From: a bacterium
GTDB lineage: Bacteria; Chloroflexota; Dormibacteria; Aeolococcales; Bog-877
Assembly: GCA_021795235.1 (NCBI GenBank)
Contig: JAJYPP010000001.1
Location: 62,001 to 126,000 of the forward strand
Direction of reading: 5' to 3'
Length of the DNA stretch: 64,000 nt
Below, piece by piece: positions 13,519-22,187 of this stretch; the first letter of the stretch is position 1; every line of letters starts with the position of its first letter. The notes beneath the pieces are model-generated. The model searched no databases. It had not been told where the DNA came from and was given only the letters and a program-made list of their open reading frames with translations. The position numbers and the translations under genes are program-made.

Positions 13519-16137
13519 GTGAAGGCAGCCTTCGACCCAGCCTCCACCGAGGCCCATTGGCGGCGGCGGTGGGAGGAGTTGCGCCTGGGTGAGGCTGACG
13601 CTCTGAGTTCACGGCCTGCCTTCTCGATAGCGCTGCCGCCACCCAACATCACCGGGGCGCTGCACATGGGTCACGCGCTCAATGCGGTGATCCAGGACTC
13701 ACTCTGCCGCTTTCATCGGATGCGCGGGTACGAGGTCTGCTGGGTGCCTGGCACCGACCATGCCGCGATCGCCACTCAGAACGTGATCGAGCGACAGCTC
13801 GCGCAGGAGGGCACCAGCAAGGAGGAGCTGGGTCGAGAGGCCTTCGATCAGCGGGTGGACCTCTGGTACAGCACCTACCAGGGCCGCATTGTGGAGCAGC
13901 TGCGGCGCATGGGCGCGAGTTGCGATTGGACTCGCGAGCGCTTCACTCTGGACGAGCGTTACGTGCGGGTGATCCGCACCGCCTTCAAGGAACTCTTCGA
14001 CCAGGGTCTCATCTACCGCGGGCCTCGGATAGTCAACTGGTGTCCCCGCTGCCACAGCGCCATCTCCGATGAGGAGGTGGAGTATCGCGAGCACCACGAC
14101 ATCTTCTACCAGGTCCGCTACCGGGGCGCCGACGGCACCCAGGGTCTGGTGATAGCCACCACCAGACCGGAGACCATCGTGGCCGACGTGGCGGTGGCGG
14201 TTCCTCCTGGCGATCCGCGTTATTTGGGCCTGGCGGGAGCGACCGTCCTGGAGCCGCTGACAGGGCGGCCCATCCCGGTCATCGAGGACCAGGCCGTGGA
14301 TCCGAAGCTGGGAACCGGAGCTCTGAAGATCACCCCCGGGCACAGCGCCGAGGACTTTGACATCGGGTTGCGGCATCAACTGCCGGTCCTGACCGTGATC
14401 TCGCTGGACGGCATCATGGTGGTGCCGGAGATGCCGGCCCTGGATGGTCTGGACGTGGACCACGCCCGCGAGGTCGCGGTCACGCTGCTGCGCGATAGCG
14501 GGGCGCTGGAGAGCGAGCGGCCATTGGTTCACCAGGTGGGGCACTGTGATCGTTGCGGTACCGTCATCGAACCGCTGGTCACACCCCAGTGGTGGGTCAG
14601 GGTGGCGCCGCTTGCCCAACCTGCGATCCGAGTAGTGGAGGAGGACCAGGTCGTACTCCACCCCACCCACTTCCGGCGCCAGTACCTGGAGTGGATGAGC
14701 GGGCTCAGGGACTGGTGCATCAGCCGCCAGATCTGGCTCGGCCACCGCATCCCGGTCTCAACCTGTGGCAACGGGCATACCTTCGCCTGGATCGAAGAAC
14801 CGCAGGCGTGCCCGGAGTGCGCGAACCAGCACCTGATCGCAGATCCGGACGTCCTCGACACCTGGTTCTCAAGTTCACTCTGGCCATTCGCGATTCTGGG
14901 GTGGCCGGAGCCGAGCCCAGACCTCCAACGCTTTTACCCAACCAGCGTGCTCAGCACGGGTCGGGACATTCTCTGGCTCTGGGTGACTCGCATGGTCATG
15001 ATGGGCCTGCGTTTCACGGGCGAAGTTCCCTTCCGTGATGTCATCCTCCACGCCATCATCTTGGGTGCCGACGGGGCCCGTCAGTCGAAGTCGAAGGGCA
15101 ATGTGGTCGACCCTCTGGAGATGGTGGATCGCTACGGGGCTGACGCCCTCAGGGGCTGGGGGGCTACGGTTGCCATGGGAACTCAGGACTCTCGGTTCGA
15201 TGAGTCCCGGTTGGACGGCTTCTCCAAGTTTGCCAACAAGCTCTGGAACATGGTGCGCTTGCTCCACCTCATCCACTTCCCAGAGGGCGAGGGACGTATC
15301 CCTGTCACCTCCGAACCCGCTGCTGATGACCTGCAGGTGGTGGACCGCTGGATCCTGTCCCGGGTCTTTCGCCTGGTGGGCTCGGTCACTTCGGCTCTCA
15401 CCGAATTTGAGCTGGGGGTCGCCATCGACGCCATCTACCAGTTTGCCTGGAGGGAGCTCGCCGACTGGTATCTGGAGCTGGTCAAGCAGCGACTTCAGGA
15501 GCGGGACCGGGCAGCCCTGTGGACGACCAGGACCGCTTTGGTGACCGTCCTCGAGCTCCTCCATCCCATCATGCCGTTTCTGACCGACGCCCTGGCGGAG
15601 CAGTTCGACCAGCTGCCGGAGACTCTCGACCGTGCGAGTTGGCCGAGCCCGGAGCCGGGCTGGGAGGACTTGGAGGCTGAGACGAGCATGGTGGAGTTTC
15701 AGCAATTGACTGGGGAGCTGCGCAGCTGGTTGCAGGACCTGGGGGTCAGATTCGGTCGCCAAGCTCCCCGGATTCCCATCAGTGTGACAACCGGCAGCGA
15801 CGCCGCCGTGGTTGATCTGATCCGTGTCTACCTGCCTGCCATGGCCCCGGTGGCCTGGGTCGAGGCCGAGCTCGGCTCTCTGCAAGGGGTGGCGCCGTTG
15901 GTGGTGGGCCAGACCACAGTTCGGCTGGCGCCGACCGCCGCCGGCGAGAGCCCGCAGATAAGGGCGCGGATGGAGCGGGAGCTCGAGCAGCTGATGCAGT
16001 TGCGCCTGCGCCTCGCCACTCACCTCAGCGGCCCCTTCGCCACCGGCGCGCCTCCAGAGGTCGTACAGCGCGAGCGGGACCGGCTCGAGGAGGCGTCCCG
16101 GCGCGAGGCCATGCTGCGCGCCTCCTTAGGGATCTGA
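13519..16137 (+). CDS. valS: Valyl-tRNA synthetase
   Basis: This is an 872-residue class I synthetase. The HIGH-type motif is PPPNITGALHMGH at 41-52. The CP1 editing domain begins near residue 160 (WCPRCHSAISDEEVEY). The second signature reads RQSKSKGN near 521-528, where the usual KMSKSKGN has Arg-Gln in place of Lys-Met. An anticodon-binding helical domain and a C-terminal coiled coil (IRARMERELEQLMQLRLR to the end) complete it. The GTG start is preceded by a GGGGGTCCT stretch and lies 15 bp after metE. The four-gene membrane cluster begins 15 bp downstream. Confidence 0.96.
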   Translation: MKAAFDPASTEAHWRRRWEELRLGEADALSSRPAFSIALPPPNITGALHMGHALNAVIQDSLCRFHRMRGYEVCWVPGTDHAAIATQNVIERQLAQEGTSKEELGREAFDQRVDLWYSTYQGRIVEQLRRMGASCDWTRERFTLDERYVRVIRTAFKELFDQGLIYRGPRIVNWCPRCHSAISDEEVEYREHHDIFYQVRYRGADGTQGLVIATTRPETIVADVAVAVPPGDPRYLGLAGATVLEPLTGRPIPVIEDQAVDPKLGTGALKITPGHSAEDFDIGLRHQLPVLTVISLDGIMVVPEMPALDGLDVDHAREVAVTLLRDSGALESERPLVHQVGHCDRCGTVIEPLVTPQWWVRVAPLAQPAIRVVEEDQVVLHPTHFRRQYLEWMSGLRDWCISRQIWLGHRIPVSTCGNGHTFAWIEEPQACPECANQHLIADPDVLDTWFSSSLWPFAILGWPEPSPDLQRFYPTSVLSTGRDILWLWVTRMVMMGLRFTGEVPFRDVILHAIILGADGARQSKSKGNVVDPLEMVDRYGADALRGWGATVAMGTQDSRFDESRLDGFSKFANKLWNMVRLLHLIHFPEGEGRIPVTSEPAADDLQVVDRWILSRVFRLVGSVTSALTEFELGVAIDAIYQFAWRELADWYLELVKQRLQERDRAALWTTRTALVTVLELLHPIMPFLTDALAEQFDQLPETLDRASWPSPEPGWEDLEAETSMVEFQQLTGELRSWLQDLGVRFGRQAPRIPISVTTGSDAAVVDLIRVYLPAMAPVAWVEAELGSLQGVAPLVVGQTTVRLAPTAAGESPQIRARMERELEQLMQLRLRLATHLSGPFATGAPPEVVQRERDRLEEASRREAMLRASLGI

Positions 16138-16152
16138 GTCGGGGACGGCCGC

Positions 16153-17904
16153 TTGCTGTCCCTGACCACGCTGCCGCTGCTGGTCCTGCTCCCGCCCGCG
16201 GTCGCGGCCTTCCTGGCGGGGGCCAGCTCTCGCTCCCTGGTCCCCAATCCAGGGCTGGTTGCGAGGTGGACCGTTCGTCTGGGATTGACGCTGTCGTTGA
16301 TCGCCGCCGGCGCCATCCTGGTGCGGCTGCCGCCCACCGGCATTGTGGACTTGACCCTCTGGCGGCTTGACTCGCAGCTGCCGGTGACACTGCAGTTCGG
16401 GGTCGGGGGGCTAGGTCTGGCCGCGATGGTGCTGGCCGCCGCTCTGGTGGTGAGCTTCAGCGCCGGCGATCGCCGGCCGCTGGTCTCGTCGGCGCTGGCG
16501 GTGGCTGCCCTGGGAGGGGTGCTGGCCGCAATGTCCGGTGGCTTGTTGAGTCTCTTCGTTGGTCTACAGCTCTCCGCGGTAGGGGGGATCGGCATCAGTT
16601 ACGCCCGCTCTCCGCGAGCCGCCAGCCATCGGATCGTCTGGGCGGCGGTCGCCGACCAGGGCGTCGCCGTGATCTGGCTGGGAGCGGTGGTGGCGCTCTA
16701 CCACAGCGCCGGGACGGTCCAGTTCAGTGACATCCCCACCAGTTCCATCAACTTCGTCCTGGCGGTGATCCTGCTGGTGCCCGCCGTGGTGCGTCTGAGT
16801 TCAGCCGGGCTTCTCTTGGGATCTGCTCCCGGAGCCGAGGGGGCGCGGGCTCTGGATTTGGCGGATTGGCTGTCGGTGGTGGCGGTGCCCACGTCACTGG
16901 TGATCCTGCTGCGGGATCTTCAGCTGAGCGGGGGCGTTTGGCCATCGCACGCGTTCGGCACCATGTTGGACGCGGTTGGCCTCACAGCCGCCCTGGCGAT
17001 CGCTGTTGTCGTCCTGATCCGGCGGCGGCCCGGCGGTGAGGTCGGCGCTCTGCTGGTGGTGGCGGTGGCACTGACATTCCTCGGCTTTGGGTCCAACTCG
17101 CCGGCGGGGACCGAGCTGGGGGTGGGAGCGGGCCTGTTCCTGGAACTGCTGGCAGCGTTCTTGCCGCGGGCCCTGGCGACTACCTCCCAGGGACTTCGAT
17201 CCGACACCCAACGCGGCCAGTGGGCCTCGGTGGCCCTCCGGGCGGTCATCCTCGCGGCCGGCTCGCCGGTGTCCCTGGCGTTCACCGCTTGTCTCCTTGG
17301 ACTCAGCCTCGGCCTCCATGCCGGGGGGCTTGCGGGGTTGATGCCGACCCTGGGGTATGGTGGCTGCCTATTCTCCCTTTGCCTTCTGATCCCTCTGCTG
17401 CTACGTCTGCGCGGCGGGGGATACTCGTGGAGGAACTCGTTCCTCCTCCTGCCGGGGGGGCTCTTGGCGGCGGGAGCGATCGCTGGCGGCTGGATTCTGA
17501 CCGGACCGGTGGCTGCTATCGCCTTCTCGGGCGCGACCGCACCGGTGCCCATCACCTCGCCGGATCCCCTGTCGGTGCAGATCCCAGGGATCCTCTATCC
17601 CCAAGGGTATGTGGCGCTGCTGGCTCTGCTCTTGCTGCTGGCGCTGGGAGCGGTGAGGTATGCCGCGGGGGCAACGGTGTGGCCACGGTGGGATTACTCG
17701 GCAAGCCTGGAGGGGCCCGCGGAAGCCATGCTGAGACCTTTCCGGATCGATCTGGACCTGAGTCGATGGACGCGCCGTCTGAGTCGTGTTGGGCGGGCCG
17801 TCACTCTGGGTCTGGATCTCTCGGAGCGCGAGTTGGCGGAGCGTCCGATCTGGTTCTGGCTCGCAACCACCGCCGCGGTCGCCTGGCTGATGGCTCAACG
17901 ATGA
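16153..17904 (+). CDS. NuoL/HyfB-like polytopic membrane protein, lysine-free
   Basis: This is a 583-residue protein with about 14 or more predicted membrane segments. The early helix GLLSLFVGLQLSAVGGIGIS resembles the TM4-5 segment of NuoL/NuoM-type antiporter subunits. The C-terminus has an amphipathic stretch and a final anchor helix (RPIWFWLATTAAVAWLM), as in NuoL/HyfB. The whole sequence has no lysine, although proton-pumping homologues need membrane lysines. TTG 16153 is the first start after valS. The stop overlaps the next gene (ATGA). No quinone oxidoreductase, hydrogenase or Mrp genes lie nearby. The family link is by pattern and length, so ion transport is only a hypothesis. Confidence 0.65.
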   Translation: MLSLTTLPLLVLLPPAVAAFLAGASSRSLVPNPGLVARWTVRLGLTLSLIAAGAILVRLPPTGIVDLTLWRLDSQLPVTLQFGVGGLGLAAMVLAAALVVSFSAGDRRPLVSSALAVAALGGVLAAMSGGLLSLFVGLQLSAVGGIGISYARSPRAASHRIVWAAVADQGVAVIWLGAVVALYHSAGTVQFSDIPTSSINFVLAVILLVPAVVRLSSAGLLLGSAPGAEGARALDLADWLSVVAVPTSLVILLRDLQLSGGVWPSHAFGTMLDAVGLTAALAIAVVVLIRRRPGGEVGALLVVAVALTFLGFGSNSPAGTELGVGAGLFLELLAAFLPRALATTSQGLRSDTQRGQWASVALRAVILAAGSPVSLAFTACLLGLSLGLHAGGLAGLMPTLGYGGCLFSLCLLIPLLLRLRGGGYSWRNSFLLLPGGLLAAGAIAGGWILTGPVAAIAFSGATAPVPITSPDPLSVQIPGILYPQGYVALLALLLLLALGAVRYAAGATVWPRWDYSASLEGPAEAMLRPFRIDLDLSRWTRRLSRVGRAVTLGLDLSERELAERPIWFWLATTAAVAWLMAQR

Positions 17905-18509
17905 TCGTAGCGGCCCTGCTGGCGGCCGGTGGCTTTGTGGCGGCTGCGGTAGCCCTGGTCAGCGTCGGGCCCAAAGGAGTGGGGGTGAGCGCACTCGCGA
18001 TGGGTCTGGGCATGGGGGGGCTGGCATCCCTCACCGATGGCTTCGCCGCCTTTCTGACCCTGGCCGGCGTGGGGGCGGTTGCTCTCACCCTGATCTTGCT
18101 GGGGCAGCGGGTGCCCCGTGTCGCCAGCGCTCGCTGGCTGCTCGGCATGGCTCCGGTGGTCGGCCGAGAGCGCGTCTTCGACATCCGCAGCCTGCGGCTG
18201 CTGGCCGGAGTCGGAGTCTTGATGGTGACCCGCCTGCTGTCTGGACATCTGACGGCCGGCACCGTGTCCACGCAAGGGCCGGCCTTCGCCTGCCTGTTCG
18301 CCTGGGAGGTGGGGATCATCCGGGTGGTCACCGGACGCGGGCCCTCGGACCTTGCGTTGGGCGCCTTCTGCGCTGCGATGGGCACCAGCGCGTTTCTGCT
18401 CTTGAGCTCACCGCATGACTCCCTGGTGTGGGCGGTGCTGATCTCAGCCGTCCCCGCGGTCCCTCTGGTCCTCCTGGCCCGGTCGGCTCCTTGGGAGAGT
18501 GGTTCGTGA
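17901..18509 (+). CDS. Small polytopic membrane protein, possibly NuoJ-like
   Basis: This 202-residue protein has six or so hydrophobic helices. The ATG overlaps the preceding stop (ATGA). The segment after GPKGVGVSALAMGLGMGGL, followed by DGFAAFLTLAGVGAVAL, has the spacing of helices 2-3 in NuoJ-type subunits, but key residues are not conserved well enough to be sure. It contains a single lysine. Its length fits NuoJ or HyfE. It belongs to a four-gene cluster with 4-base overlaps and is likely a subunit of the same membrane complex as its neighbours. An unrelated membrane protein family remains possible. Confidence 0.6.
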   Translation: MIVAALLAAGGFVAAAVALVSVGPKGVGVSALAMGLGMGGLASLTDGFAAFLTLAGVGAVALTLILLGQRVPRVASARWLLGMAPVVGRERVFDIRSLRLLAGVGVLMVTRLLSGHLTAGTVSTQGPAFACLFAWEVGIIRVVTGRGPSDLALGAFCAAMGTSAFLLLSSPHDSLVWAVLISAVPAVPLVLLARSAPWESGS

Positions 18510-19753
18510 TCCAGGCCCTCGAGCTGGTCGGTTGTGGCCTGGCGGCCGCATTGGTGTGGTGGTTGGGACCCCGGTCACGGTGGGCTCAGGGTCCAGCGGC
18601 ACTCCTGTTCTTGGGATCCGGTTGCCTGCTCTCGGCGCATCTACTGGCCACCACCTCACCACTCACCCCCCACTGGGTCGACGGATGGGGAGCCCTTCAG
18701 CCCACCCGGGTCGCGGCCGGGCTGCTGCTCGGTGGCGTGGCCGCCATGATCCTGGAGGTGGCCGTCGCCGGTGCGGCCGGACCCTCTCCCCGAGCCCAGG
18801 CGTTGCTGTTGGCCCTGCTGGTGCCGACCGCGGTCGCGGTAGCGACCAACTCCCTGGCCGTGGCCGCATTCGCTGCATCTGCTCTCATGGCGATGGTCTG
18901 GCTTCGTTGGCAGCGGGTGGCGGGACCTCAACTCTCGGTCCGCTCAGTCGCTCGGCAATCGGTGCTGGTGTTCGGCGCCCTGCTGGGGGCGGCCGCCATC
19001 ATGCCCGGGGTGCGGCTCGGTTCTTCCCCGCCGATTCTGGCCGCCATCCTGATCGCGTCCGCCGCCGCGGGTCTCATGGGGGTCATGCCATTCTCAGGTT
19101 GGGTGGGGGCCGCCACCAGATTGGGCCGGTCCGAGGCGGTGTTCTGGCGGTTGCTGCTCCTGCCCGCTGGGGCTCTGCTGGAGGCCCGGATGATCGCCCT
19201 CAGTCCAGCCACGGTGGCGACTCCTTTGCGGGAGTTGCTGATCGGCCTGGGGCTGGCGACCGCTCTCTACTGGGGTGCCCGGGCCCTTCTCGGGCCCGAC
19301 CAGGGCAGGTACCCCCGGGCCCTGGCTTCCGATTCCGGCCTGATCTGTATTGGGATCGCCTTTGGGACCGTGGAAGGCCTCGCGGCGGCCCTGATCCTGA
19401 TCGTCGCACACTGGCTGGGAGGTGCCGTCCTGGCCGATGAGAACAGCCCCAGGGCCCAGCTGCTGGCCTGGGTCGGGATGTCTGGCATTCCCCCGTTCGG
19501 CGGCTTCACCGGGCGCCTCCTGACGGTGCTGGCCGCGGTCTCCTTCAGCCCCATCCTGGCCGCCCTGCTGCTGCTCAGCGGCGGCTGCCAGCTGGGGTCC
19601 GCGGCCGCCGGCATGCGCGCCACGCTCGCGCCGGACCAGACCCACGTGGGCCGATTCGCCGAGGTGCTCGGCCTGGGGCTCGCACTGCTGACTCTGGTCC
19701 TCGGGGTGGTGCCGGCCCAGGCGATCCACCTCCTGTTCGGGTTTCGGCCTTGA
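18506..19753 (+). CDS. NuoN/HyfF-like polytopic membrane protein, lysine-free
   Basis: This is a 415-residue protein of about 12-14 membrane helices. The start is GTG in a GTGA overlap with the previous stop; the frame upstream of it is not used. Two landmarks match NuoM/NuoN-type subunits. LMGVMPFSGWVGAATRLGRS sits where the family has its PFHxWLPDA segment, and GMSGIPPFGGFTGRLL matches the LSLAGIPPLxGFxGK segment, with Arg in place of the conserved Lys. No lysine occurs anywhere. If it descends from complex I subunits, the classic proton-channel lysines have been lost, which argues for an altered role. Confidence 0.7.
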   Translation: MIQALELVGCGLAAALVWWLGPRSRWAQGPAALLFLGSGCLLSAHLLATTSPLTPHWVDGWGALQPTRVAAGLLLGGVAAMILEVAVAGAAGPSPRAQALLLALLVPTAVAVATNSLAVAAFAASALMAMVWLRWQRVAGPQLSVRSVARQSVLVFGALLGAAAIMPGVRLGSSPPILAAILIASAAAGLMGVMPFSGWVGAATRLGRSEAVFWRLLLLPAGALLEARMIALSPATVATPLRELLIGLGLATALYWGARALLGPDQGRYPRALASDSGLICIGIAFGTVEGLAAALILIVAHWLGGAVLADENSPRAQLLAWVGMSGIPPFGGFTGRLLTVLAAVSFSPILAALLLLSGGCQLGSAAAGMRATLAPDQTHVGRFAEVLGLGLALLTLVLGVVPAQAIHLLFGFRP

Positions 19754-20448
19754 GCCACATTCTGATCGGACTCGCCCTCTGCGCCGGACTGCTCATCTAT
19801 CCCGGCGGAGCGACCTTGGTTGGGCTTTCGGTGCTGGTCGCCAGCGGGGCGTCTTGGGGGCGCAGTCCTCGATCTTGGGCATGGGCCGATGCCGGGCCCA
19901 GCTTTGTGCCGCTGATGCTGGCCTCTCTGGTGGTCATCCCGCTGCCCTGGCCTGGCAGCCCGCTGGTCGGCCTATCCGTCGCCGGACTCGGCCGGGTGGG
20001 AGTTGGTGGTGTGGCGCTCAGCGCCATGGGGCTGCTCGGCCTGGACCTGCTGGCGCCAGTCCCCGGCCCTGACCGCTGGATCCGGCTCCTCTGGTCCGCG
20101 CTGTCGGTGACCGCCATCCTGGTTCTGGCCGAGCTGCTGTCCGCCGCCGATTGGAGCAGTCTTCTCGGGGCTTCTGGCGTGGGAGCCGAGGGCGGACGCC
20201 TCTTGGTGGGCGGCTTCTGCCTGCTGGCTGCTCCCTGGACCGCCGGCTCCCAGCCCGAGCTCCGACTGCGTTCCGCCTCCGCTTGGACGGCCCGGGTCTG
20301 CGTGGCCACGTTCCTGATGCTGCCGCAACTGGAGCGGGCGCCGGTCTGGTCTGCTCTGGGGGCGGTTCTCCTGGCCTGCTTGGTAGTGGGCATAGCCGCT
20401 GGAGTTGGTCGCCGCTTCCGGCCTCAGCTGGCTGGTCGTAGCGGGTGA
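19750..20448 (+). CDS. Polytopic membrane protein of unknown family, fourth gene of the cluster
   Basis: This is a 232-residue protein with about seven hydrophobic segments and a short basic C-terminus (GRRFRPQLAGRSG). TTG starts it in a TTGA overlap with the previous stop. I cannot place it. Its position last in a NuoL/J/N-like set invites comparison with NuoH/HyfC, which is longer and has acidic loop residues I do not see here. It contains no lysine, like the 583- and 415-residue proteins. About 110 bp separate it from maf, with a TAGACT box in between (20463-20468). Confidence 0.6.
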   Translation: MSHILIGLALCAGLLIYPGGATLVGLSVLVASGASWGRSPRSWAWADAGPSFVPLMLASLVVIPLPWPGSPLVGLSVAGLGRVGVGGVALSAMGLLGLDLLAPVPGPDRWIRLLWSALSVTAILVLAELLSAADWSSLLGASGVGAEGGRLLVGGFCLLAAPWTAGSQPELRLRSASAWTARVCVATFLMLPQLERAPVWSALGAVLLACLVVGIAAGVGRRFRPQLAGRSG

Positions 20449-20559
20449 AGGGCGCTCCGCTGGTAGACTGTAAGTTCCCGTGAAGCAGTTGGGCTGGTGC
20501 GGGGACAGGCCGAGCGCGGGCTGCGGTCAATCACTGGAACTGGGAGGCTTATCAAGGAC

Positions 20560-21237
20560 GTGGCGGAGTTAGTCCTGGCCTCCGGTTCGAAGCGAAGGCG
20601 CGAACTCCTGGTCCGCCTGGGCCTGAGGTTCACCGTGATCTCCTCCGAAATCGAGGAGCGGCTGGTTCCCGGCATGTGCGCCGACCTCGCCGTCCAGCTG
20701 GTGGCGAGGGCCAAGGCCCATGCCGTCATCTCCCGGGTGGGGGCCCCGGCCAGCGCCTATGTGTTGGCCGCGGACACGGTCGTCATGGGTCCCACGGGGT
20801 TGCTGGGCAAGCCGCTCACCGAAGCCCGTGCCAAGGAGATGCTCAGAGAGCTCAGGGGCCAGCGCCACGTCGTGCTCACCGGGATCTGCGCGCTGTGCCC
20901 CGGCACCATGAAGGAGAGCACCGGGGTGGCGCGGTCAGCGGTGCGGATGCGCGCCTTCGACGATGAGGAGCTCGAGCAGTACGTGGCTGGCGGGGAGCCC
21001 CTGGACAAAGCTGGTGCCTACGCTGTTCAGGGTCTCGGAGGCTCTCTGGTGGATGCCATCGGAGGACGAACCGACACCGTGATCGGGCTGGACTGCCAGA
21101 TGGCGATGCAGCTTCTGACCGAGGTCGGGTACCCGCATCCGCTGCCGACGGCTCCGGATCATCCCGTGCCTTTGGGCAAGTCGGCCACCACCAGGCGACC
21201 GCTGGCCAGCTCCAATCGCAGCGGAGGGACGCGCTGA
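20560..21237 (+). CDS. maf: Maf/YhdE-family nucleotide pyrophosphatase
   Basis: This is a 225-residue protein beginning VAELVLASGSKRRRELL. The SGSxRRxELL motif near the start, the AADTVVM strand and a KPLTEAxAxEML segment are the Maf active-site signatures. These enzymes hydrolyse dTTP/UTP or modified pyrimidine nucleotides and are linked to division arrest. I take GTG 20560; an in-frame GTG at 20497 would add 21 residues unlike the family. The C-terminal 30 residues after QLLTEVGYP are an extra basic tail. The stop lies in a CTGA context, 15 bp before the next ATG. Confidence 0.9.
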   Translation: MAELVLASGSKRRRELLVRLGLRFTVISSEIEERLVPGMCADLAVQLVARAKAHAVISRVGAPASAYVLAADTVVMGPTGLLGKPLTEARAKEMLRELRGQRHVVLTGICALCPGTMKESTGVARSAVRMRAFDDEELEQYVAGGEPLDKAGAYAVQGLGGSLVDAIGGRTDTVIGLDCQMAMQLLTEVGYPHPLPTAPDHPVPLGKSATTRRPLASSNRSGGTR

Positions 21238-21251
21238 AGTCGCGGCGACAG

Positions 21252-22187
21252 ATGGGGGCGGCCGCCTGCGTTCCTGTGATCGGATTGGCGGCGTTGATGA
21301 CTTCCTGCGGAAGTTCGTCGATACCCAGCACGCTCACCATCGCCAGCGAGGTCATCTCGCCCACCGGCAACTCTGGCCCCTCCGAGCCGGTTGCGCAGGG
21401 GACCACTGCCCAGGTCCAGGTGACCGTCACCAACACTGGCACCACCGCATTCCGAGGGGTCACCTTGAGGCTGGTGGTCCCGGCCGGTTTGGTCTACGCG
21501 AGCACCGCCTCCCTGGTGCAGAACGGCGACGCGGTACGCGCTGCCGACGTAGCGCCGGCGTCGCGGGATTCGACCCTTACCTGGGGGAGCTGGACCATCG
21601 GTCCTGGGCTGCCCGGGCTGCCCAGCCAGGTGGTGATCACAGCCAATCTCAAGGCGACCGGCGCGTCGGGACCGGTGCATCTCTTTCCCGAGGTATTTGC
21701 GACTGGCTACGCGAGCACGGTGTCGGGGGCACCGCTGACTTTGAACATCACCCCTGCCCCGGCTCTCAGCCTATCCCTGCACGTGAACCCAGCGGCGGTC
21801 ACCTCGGGTTCGATGGTCACTTACAACGCGGTCATCACCAACACCGGGAGCGGCTCGGCTCCCGGCGCCACCTTGGCGATAACGCTGCCATCCGACTTCG
21901 ACTATGTGACCACGGAGTCGACCGCGGGGAATGCCAGCACCTCTGGTGCCACCTATCCGGTGGTCGGCTCGGTCATTCCGACCTGGTCCGGATTCGACAT
22001 TCCCGGGCAATCTGGATCCAGTCCCGGACTGCTCACCCTCACCTTTGAGGTCAAGGTCCTGCCGGACGTGGGCCGCGGCGCCTACTCGGCCTCCGCCGGC
22101 CTCATCGCCGGCAACGGCTCGGCGTCCCAGAATGACATCCTGTTGAACTATGGCTCGCTGGCGCCGGTGACTGTGACCGGCCCCTGA
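21252..22187 (+). CDS. Secreted lipoprotein with two DUF11/CARDB-like beta domains
   Basis: This is a 311-residue protein. A hydrophobic leader ends in the lipobox-like LMTSCGSS near residue 19, so Cys19 is the likely lipid-anchored residue. Two Ig-like repeats follow, each with a VTVTNTGTT or AVITNTGSG strand characteristic of DUF11/CARDB stalk domains. It should sit on the outer face of the membrane as a stalk or binding protein. ATG 21252 gives a short n-region. An alternative CTG at 21234, overlapping the maf stop (CTGA), would add LKSRRQ and a better signal peptide. It shares the maf transcript by spacing. No partner enzyme is evident. Confidence 0.75.
   Translation: MGAAACVPVIGLAALMTSCGSSSIPSTLTIASEVISPTGNSGPSEPVAQGTTAQVQVTVTNTGTTAFRGVTLRLVVPAGLVYASTASLVQNGDAVRAADVAPASRDSTLTWGSWTIGPGLPGLPSQVVITANLKATGASGPVHLFPEVFATGYASTVSGAPLTLNITPAPALSLSLHVNPAAVTSGSMVTYNAVITNTGSGSAPGATLAITLPSDFDYVTTESTAGNASTSGATYPVVGSVIPTWSGFDIPGQSGSSPGLLTLTFEVKVLPDVGRGAYSASAGLIAGNGSASQNDILLNYGSLAPVTVTGP

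Follow-up and report, generated by a model that had tools for sequence, protein, structure and literature searches.

Four overlapping membrane genes in the window (the whole 64,000-nucleotide stretch of DNA analysed, part of contig C130) appear to encode a divergent branch of the Mrp/complex I superfamily in which the central lysine axis has been lost. The sequences themselves show homology of the two larger proteins with antiporter subunits, coupling of the four genes, retention across a class, purifying selection, and loss of that axis. We lean, with modest confidence, towards the block encoding a single complex that forms a new branch of this superfamily, in which the lysine wire was exchanged for an Asp276-Arg337 pair and which works as a conduit or regulator, rewired and responsive to pmf or ions.

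A coupled membrane gene block between valS and maf

The block and its immediate neighbours are as follows.

13519..16137, forward strand: valS, the constant upstream neighbour across the class (gene order); context, outside the putative complex
16153..17904, forward strand: L583, 583 aa, TTG start, MrpA/NuoL-type antiporter subunit without lysine (open reading frame and profile matches)
17901..18509, forward strand: K202, 202 aa, small polytopic membrane protein of no known family (open reading frame)
18506..19753, forward strand: N415, 415 aa, GTG start, NuoN/MrpD-type antiporter subunit without lysine (open reading frame and profile matches)
19750..20448, forward strand: H232, 232 aa, TTG start, small polytopic membrane protein of no known family (open reading frame)
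20497..21237, forward strand: maf (PF02545, 3.6e-51), the downstream neighbour in families f1, f2, and most f3 loci; context
21252..22187, forward strand: DUF11/CARDB protein (PF01345, 9.1e-14) with an N-terminal lipoprotein-like signal, the usual gene after maf; context

The junctions L583/K202, K202/N415, and N415/H232 consist of ATGA, GTGA, and TTGA overlaps, respectively. The four coupled frames set out in an earlier note on this DNA were all recovered, as was their position between valS and maf. Neighbouring genes comprise metE, valS, maf, the DUF11 protein, rplU, rpmA, and obg. No redox or quinone-site subunits are encoded with the block among the neighbouring genes checked, in agreement with the note's remark that hydrophilic redox subunits were missing from the locus, and both a NuoCD-like large subunit and a NuoB-like small subunit of the group 4 hydrogenase type are absent from the block. 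Mrp antiporters have no redox subunits, and the missing redox genes are therefore not odd in themselves. The assembly is 3.67 Mb in 174 contigs, with 92% completeness and 7% contamination; genes outside the window were predicted with a simple codon-usage caller, and their starts are possibly off by some codons.

Two antiporter-type subunits and two new small families

Scans of the four window proteins against Pfam and NCBIfam returned nothing above chance, while PF00361 was matched weakly by 6 of 36 N relatives. Pfam has no model for the window's own four proteins, and the block would consequently be annotated as hypothetical proteins. Profile comparisons were more informative for the two larger proteins. 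Against a canonical-only profile built from NuoL/M/N and HyfB/F of this genome (leaving out a lysine-poor trio on contig C123), the class-wide L alignment scored 96.3% (E 1.9e-9, 328 columns; reversed control 0.0%) and the class-wide N alignment 97.8% (E 8.7e-13), with reversed alignments and unrelated membrane proteins all below 1%. The best PDB match of class-wide L was MrpA (7d3u, 1.1e-7), covering residues 5-585, or nearly the whole length, and class-wide N matched ND2 (4.8e-8), MrpD (6z16, 3.7e-6), and ND4. N415 also matches HyfF and HyfB profiles. These profile and PDB matches place L583 and N415 in the antiporter superfamily, with Mrp and NuoN as their nearest relatives; the HMM-HMM comparison thus assigns them to the complex I/Mrp superfamily and not to unrelated transporters.

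The small proteins behave differently. Compared with NuoK, NuoJ, HyfE, and NuoH, K202 and H232 reached at most 0.4% in hhalign (against small reference profiles of 2-4 sequences), and members of their families gave no Pfam or PDB match to MrpB, C, E, F, or G. K202 and H232 are, on these comparisons, new families. R99 and R141 of K202 are invariant in 50 of 50 orthologues, and P18 of H232 is invariant too. The description of the block as NuoL/N-like therefore holds for L583 and N415 and fails for the two small proteins, and the proposed NuoJ-like member found no support, given that neither small protein matches NuoJ, NuoK, HyfE, or NuoH. A NuoH-like identity was also considered for H232, based on the motif AAPFNPVPxxERS in the f4 orthologues, which resembles the NuoH loop PFDLPEAESE, and was dropped because neither NuoH/HyfC profile comparisons nor the PDB gave a match. 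The size order of the block resembles HyfB-E-F-C or MrpA-B/C-D, a likeness in size only. AlphaFold models of K202 (mean pLDDT 41, from a 2-sequence alignment) and N415 (47, alone) were too poor for a fold search, and no account of a module like this turned up in literature searches.

Conservation and selection across the class

A search with one protein recovered the block in family f1, with a faint signal in family f2. With the N profile, it was located beside valS in 46 of the 50 genomes of the order, and the four genomes without a match were 58-80% complete. Gene order in f1 is valS-[L K N H]-maf-DUF11/CARDB-rplU-rpmA-obg-nadD, and it is the same in f2 with small changes. The sister order of the class (families f3 and f4) was barely reached by the first profile; membrane genes again follow valS there. 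In f4 these are L, K, N, and H, with orthology indicated by profile for L (2e-15), N (6e-13), and K (5e-8), and weakly for H (2e-4), while in f3 only L plus an N-like gene follow valS. The class-wide N profile, in which f4 members are included, matches f4 at 1e-47 to 1e-118; outside the class, it gave weak matches to ordinary NuoM/NuoN-sized frames, except in two genomes of another class of the phylum (f32, described below). The block is thus kept in related genomes across the class (f1, f2, and f4, with L and N alone in f3).

Median Nei-Gojobori omega within two genera was 0.08-0.35 for L, K, N, and H, and 0.11 for valS. Reading frames are open, with no stops, in nearly all loci. Because omega is this low, the block is a working gene set and not a decaying one. 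The suggestion that the module is degenerate did not survive, since selection on it is purifying and its frames stay open throughout a class.

Several variants of the locus were seen. In f2, a gene between valS and L (L102:13068-13535) encodes an Arg-rich protein of 155 aa with two hydrophobic segments and a double zinc ribbon (PF12773, 1.3e-8), which could be a fifth subunit on the cytoplasmic side; a gene of similar size occupies the same place in f3. In genome G027 (L055:8520-10910), L and K lie in one open frame of 796 aa with no internal stop, representing either a fusion or a sequence error; as a fusion, it would place L and K in one complex. In all three of f1, f2, and f3, maf is followed by the gene for the DUF11/CARDB protein, which carries a lipoprotein-like signal.

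Lysine depletion

L583, N415, and H232 contain no lysine and K202 contains one (K25), the same counts as first reported. For the 1432 aa of the block, 15.2 lysines were expected and 1 was seen (Poisson 4e-6), and lysine versus arginine usage differed from that of membrane controls (Fisher 5e-6). Control values came from about 480 kb of contigs of this genome (67% GC), whose 47 polytopic membrane proteins had 10.6 lysines per 1000 residues; all 24 membrane controls with 400 aa or more contained lysine. The genome as a whole is lysine-poor (17.5 per 1000 residues in the same 480 kb or so). GC bias as the sole cause of the loss was ruled out, since complex I subunits of the same lysine-poor genome retain lysines (13, 8, and 6 in NuoL, NuoM, and NuoN), as do its Hyf-like subunits.

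Across the order (f1/f2), the block holds 0.4-1.2 lysines per 1000 residues, compared with 6.9 in f2 membrane controls (n = 19). The f4 orthologues, at 3-6 per 1000 versus 5.8 in f4 membrane controls, show no special depletion, and the extreme lysine count is therefore limited to f1/f2. In f3, L and N have 0-1 lysines per protein, and the few f3 membrane controls are low too. The loss of functional lysines nevertheless reaches wider than the extreme lysine count.

Residue exchanges at the central ion-path sites

Sites were placed by HMM alignments and by E. coli NuoN primers printed in PMC13073174, from which K217 (in GFKLSLVP), K247 (in ATASKIAIFG), and K395 (in GFIGKFYVL) could be located. 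The corresponding positions are:

19073-19075, forward strand: N415 L190, the TM7 Lys site (NuoN K217), nonpolar in nearly all sequences
19163-19165, forward strand: N415 P220, the TM8 Lys site (NuoN K247), Pro in 53 of 53
19331-19333, forward strand: N415 D276, the His site (His of YSSISH), Asp or Glu in 53 of 53
19514-19516, forward strand: N415 R337, the TM12 Lys site (NuoN K395), Arg in 53 of 53
16567-16569, forward strand: L583 Q139, the TM5 Glu site, Q in f1, E in f2, and T in f4
16888-16890, forward strand: L583 P246, the TM8 site, an invariant Pro
16912-16914, forward strand: L583 R254, a conserved Arg

Central-axis residues of complex I (NuoN K217, K247, and K395, and the TM5 Glu) are not kept, their places being taken by L190, P220, and R337 in N415 and by Q139 and P246 in L583. 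The GIPPFGGFTGR motif of N415 is present with Arg (R337) at the place of the lysine, as the earlier note had recognized from its IPPFGGFTGRL landmark, and Arg alone is left of the KR pair in N (R268, f1/f2). D276 and R337 are the sole charged N residues conserved in all 53 N sequences. As a counterpoint to the reading of a lysine-free path, the L proteins of f2 still carry an acid at the TM5 Glu site.

Mutant data agree with the statement that antiporter-type subunits need membrane lysines to move protons. Most pumping was lost in E. coli NuoN K247A and K395A (PMC13073174), and isolated Nqo12/Nqo13 antiporter modules no longer conduct protons once their middle or terminal lysine has been exchanged (PMC11496545). 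Considering the replaced sites along with these data, the known lysine-based proton wire is absent from the block. Arg at K395 is not among the NuoN mutants considered here. The same study gives 88% of pumping kept in NuoN K217R (PMC13073174); by analogy, Arg or Asp in the block could still carry protons, and the conserved residues could make up an Asp/Arg-based proton wire.

Other complex I-type modules in the same genome

A separate nuo operon (nuoE-F-G-H-I-J-K-L-M-N) with lysine-bearing NuoL/M/N is present on contig C155, with a near-duplicate nuo set on C57/C153 and two Hyf-like clusters on C36. Complete lysine-bearing nuo genes elsewhere imply that the block is not the cell's complex I. 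Redox subunits elsewhere with standard lysine-bearing versions had been named in advance as evidence against a repurposed module; they exist as complex I proper, but the block is separate and conserved, and not a displaced part of it. Near-identical nuo operons and flanks occur on different contigs (L063 and L064), and the assembly, with its 7% contamination, may be a mix of two strains. The Hyf-like clusters (L061 and L062) are divergent, lie close together, and each contain HyfB/C/E/F-like genes; a NuoCD/large-subunit-like gene is found on C36 (checked in one of the two clusters).

A second N-M-L trio lies at C123:7075-12182 (L060; 484, 512, and 705 aa, with 3, 3, and 2 lysines) and is recognized by Pfam. 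Its TM7 lysines are replaced by Q, R, and A and its KR site by L, R, and R, and it has no Lys at TM8 or TM12. Conservation of the M protein is 46-86% within family f1, and its relatives in the order share 30-36%; the contig ends upstream of the trio. It would appear that the lysine axis was lost more than once here, or that the block and the C123 trio both descend from one old ancestor.

Comparison with known systems

The block shares features with several known systems and differs from each. Like the Mrp (Mnh/Sha) antiporter, it combines two antiporter-fold subunits with small membrane proteins in one operon that lacks redox subunits; however, it has no recognizable MrpB, C, E, F, or G, the central Lys axis is absent, and K202 and H232 are new families. 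In common with the complex I membrane arm (NuoL/M/N), it has homologous large subunits (L583 and N415) and the GxPPxxGFxGR motif, but it is without NuoB/CD/E/F/G/I, H, J, and K, and Leu, Pro, and Arg stand in for K217, K247, and K395. Two large plus two smaller membrane proteins also make up the group 4 [NiFe]-hydrogenase arm (HyfB/C/E/F), yet no HyfG/HyfI-type subunits lie near the block, and K202 and H232 match neither HyfE nor HyfC. The DAB inorganic carbon pump (DabA-DabB) likewise has a NuoL-type membrane subunit without redox subunits, whereas the block has no DabA-like neighbour and no unexplained large hydrophilic gene in its conserved gene order (f1). Unlike the block, DabB retains proton-path residues (PMC13144422).

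Possible functions of the block

Given the gene coupling, we infer that L583, N415, K202, and H232 form one membrane complex. The antiporter fold would be retained, and the lysine proton wire would be replaced by a buried Asp276-Arg337 pair, with D276 and R337 pairing inside the membrane, and by other arginines. With its wire replaced in this way, the complex would not be a lysine-based proton pump, and would most likely be a rewired pmf- or ion-responsive module of the inner membrane, either a tightly gated conduit or a regulator, independent of complex I. A new function for the block is plausible. The original proposal of a repurposed complex I-like module thus stands as regards two antiporter-type subunits and the disappearance of functional lysines, and falls as regards degeneration and a NuoJ-like member. 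A broader reading, to which we give a little less than even weight, is a class-wide new family of energy-membrane complexes on the complex I/Mrp antiporter fold, in which the lysine axis gave way to fixed Pro, Asp, and Arg residues and two new small subunits were added, for transport or signalling by means other than lysine-based pumping, perhaps arising twice in the lineage (the block and the C123 trio).

Alternatively, the block could be a working Mrp-type cation/proton antiporter that has diverged strongly, the roles of Lys and Glu having passed to Asp, Arg, His, and water wires, with lysine loss reflecting no more than lineage-specific K-to-R drift. The closeness of L to MrpA, the match of N to MrpD, the likewise redox-free make-up of Mrp systems, the lysine-poor genome, and the presence of Arg and not Ala at the TM12 site all fit this explanation. 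We nonetheless consider it unlikely, as the lysines of TM7 and TM8 gave way to nonpolar residues and Pro, respectively, rather than to Arg, the organism's own complex I and Hyf-like subunits retain their lysines, and the MrpB, C, E, F, and G components are not recognizable.

Loss of every tested proton-wire position class-wide, together with low omega and the zinc-ribbon membrane gene added beside the block in f2, would also be expected of a catalytically dead scaffold that transports nothing and retains its fold solely for assembling or shaping the membrane or for holding a partner. One acid and one Arg are invariant in N at former proton-path positions in two orders, however, which is more than a scaffold seems to need and makes this explanation rather improbable. 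Least credible, and in our view very nearly negligible, is the idea that the block is what remains of a complex I or hydrogenase membrane arm in decay: active-site residues are indeed lost and redox genes are missing nearby, but frames lack stops in nearly all loci, synteny is class-wide, and selection is purifying. Returning to the favoured reading of a rewired conduit or regulator, antiporter-like subunits serving a role other than proton pumping through lysines would bear directly on the debate over how complex I works, and the block lends itself readily to separating the residues that conduction requires from those that architecture requires.

A partial intermediate in another class

An L-K-N trio at a different site was found in two genomes of another class of the phylum (f32; L144:8292-12015 and L145:1846-5630), where the class-wide N profile matched at 4e-21 and 7.5e-20. 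The genes at the L and K positions encode no lysine and N has 3-5, and the K-position gene has no detectable relation to K202. In f32 N, IPFHTH is kept, DLRRL stands where others have DxKRL, Pro occupies the TM8 site, and GAPPxVxFPGRF is found at TM12, where Lys has become Arg, while the TM7 lysine is still present in one of the two sequences. These features fit f32 as a partial intermediate and the lysines as having been exchanged step by step, in an order that two sequences are too few to settle. The block is a natural set, with homology kept under strong selection and lysines replaced in a fixed pattern, to which f32 adds one partial intermediate. By eye, the f32 trio adjoins rpoN-like and membrane-pyrophosphatase-like genes.
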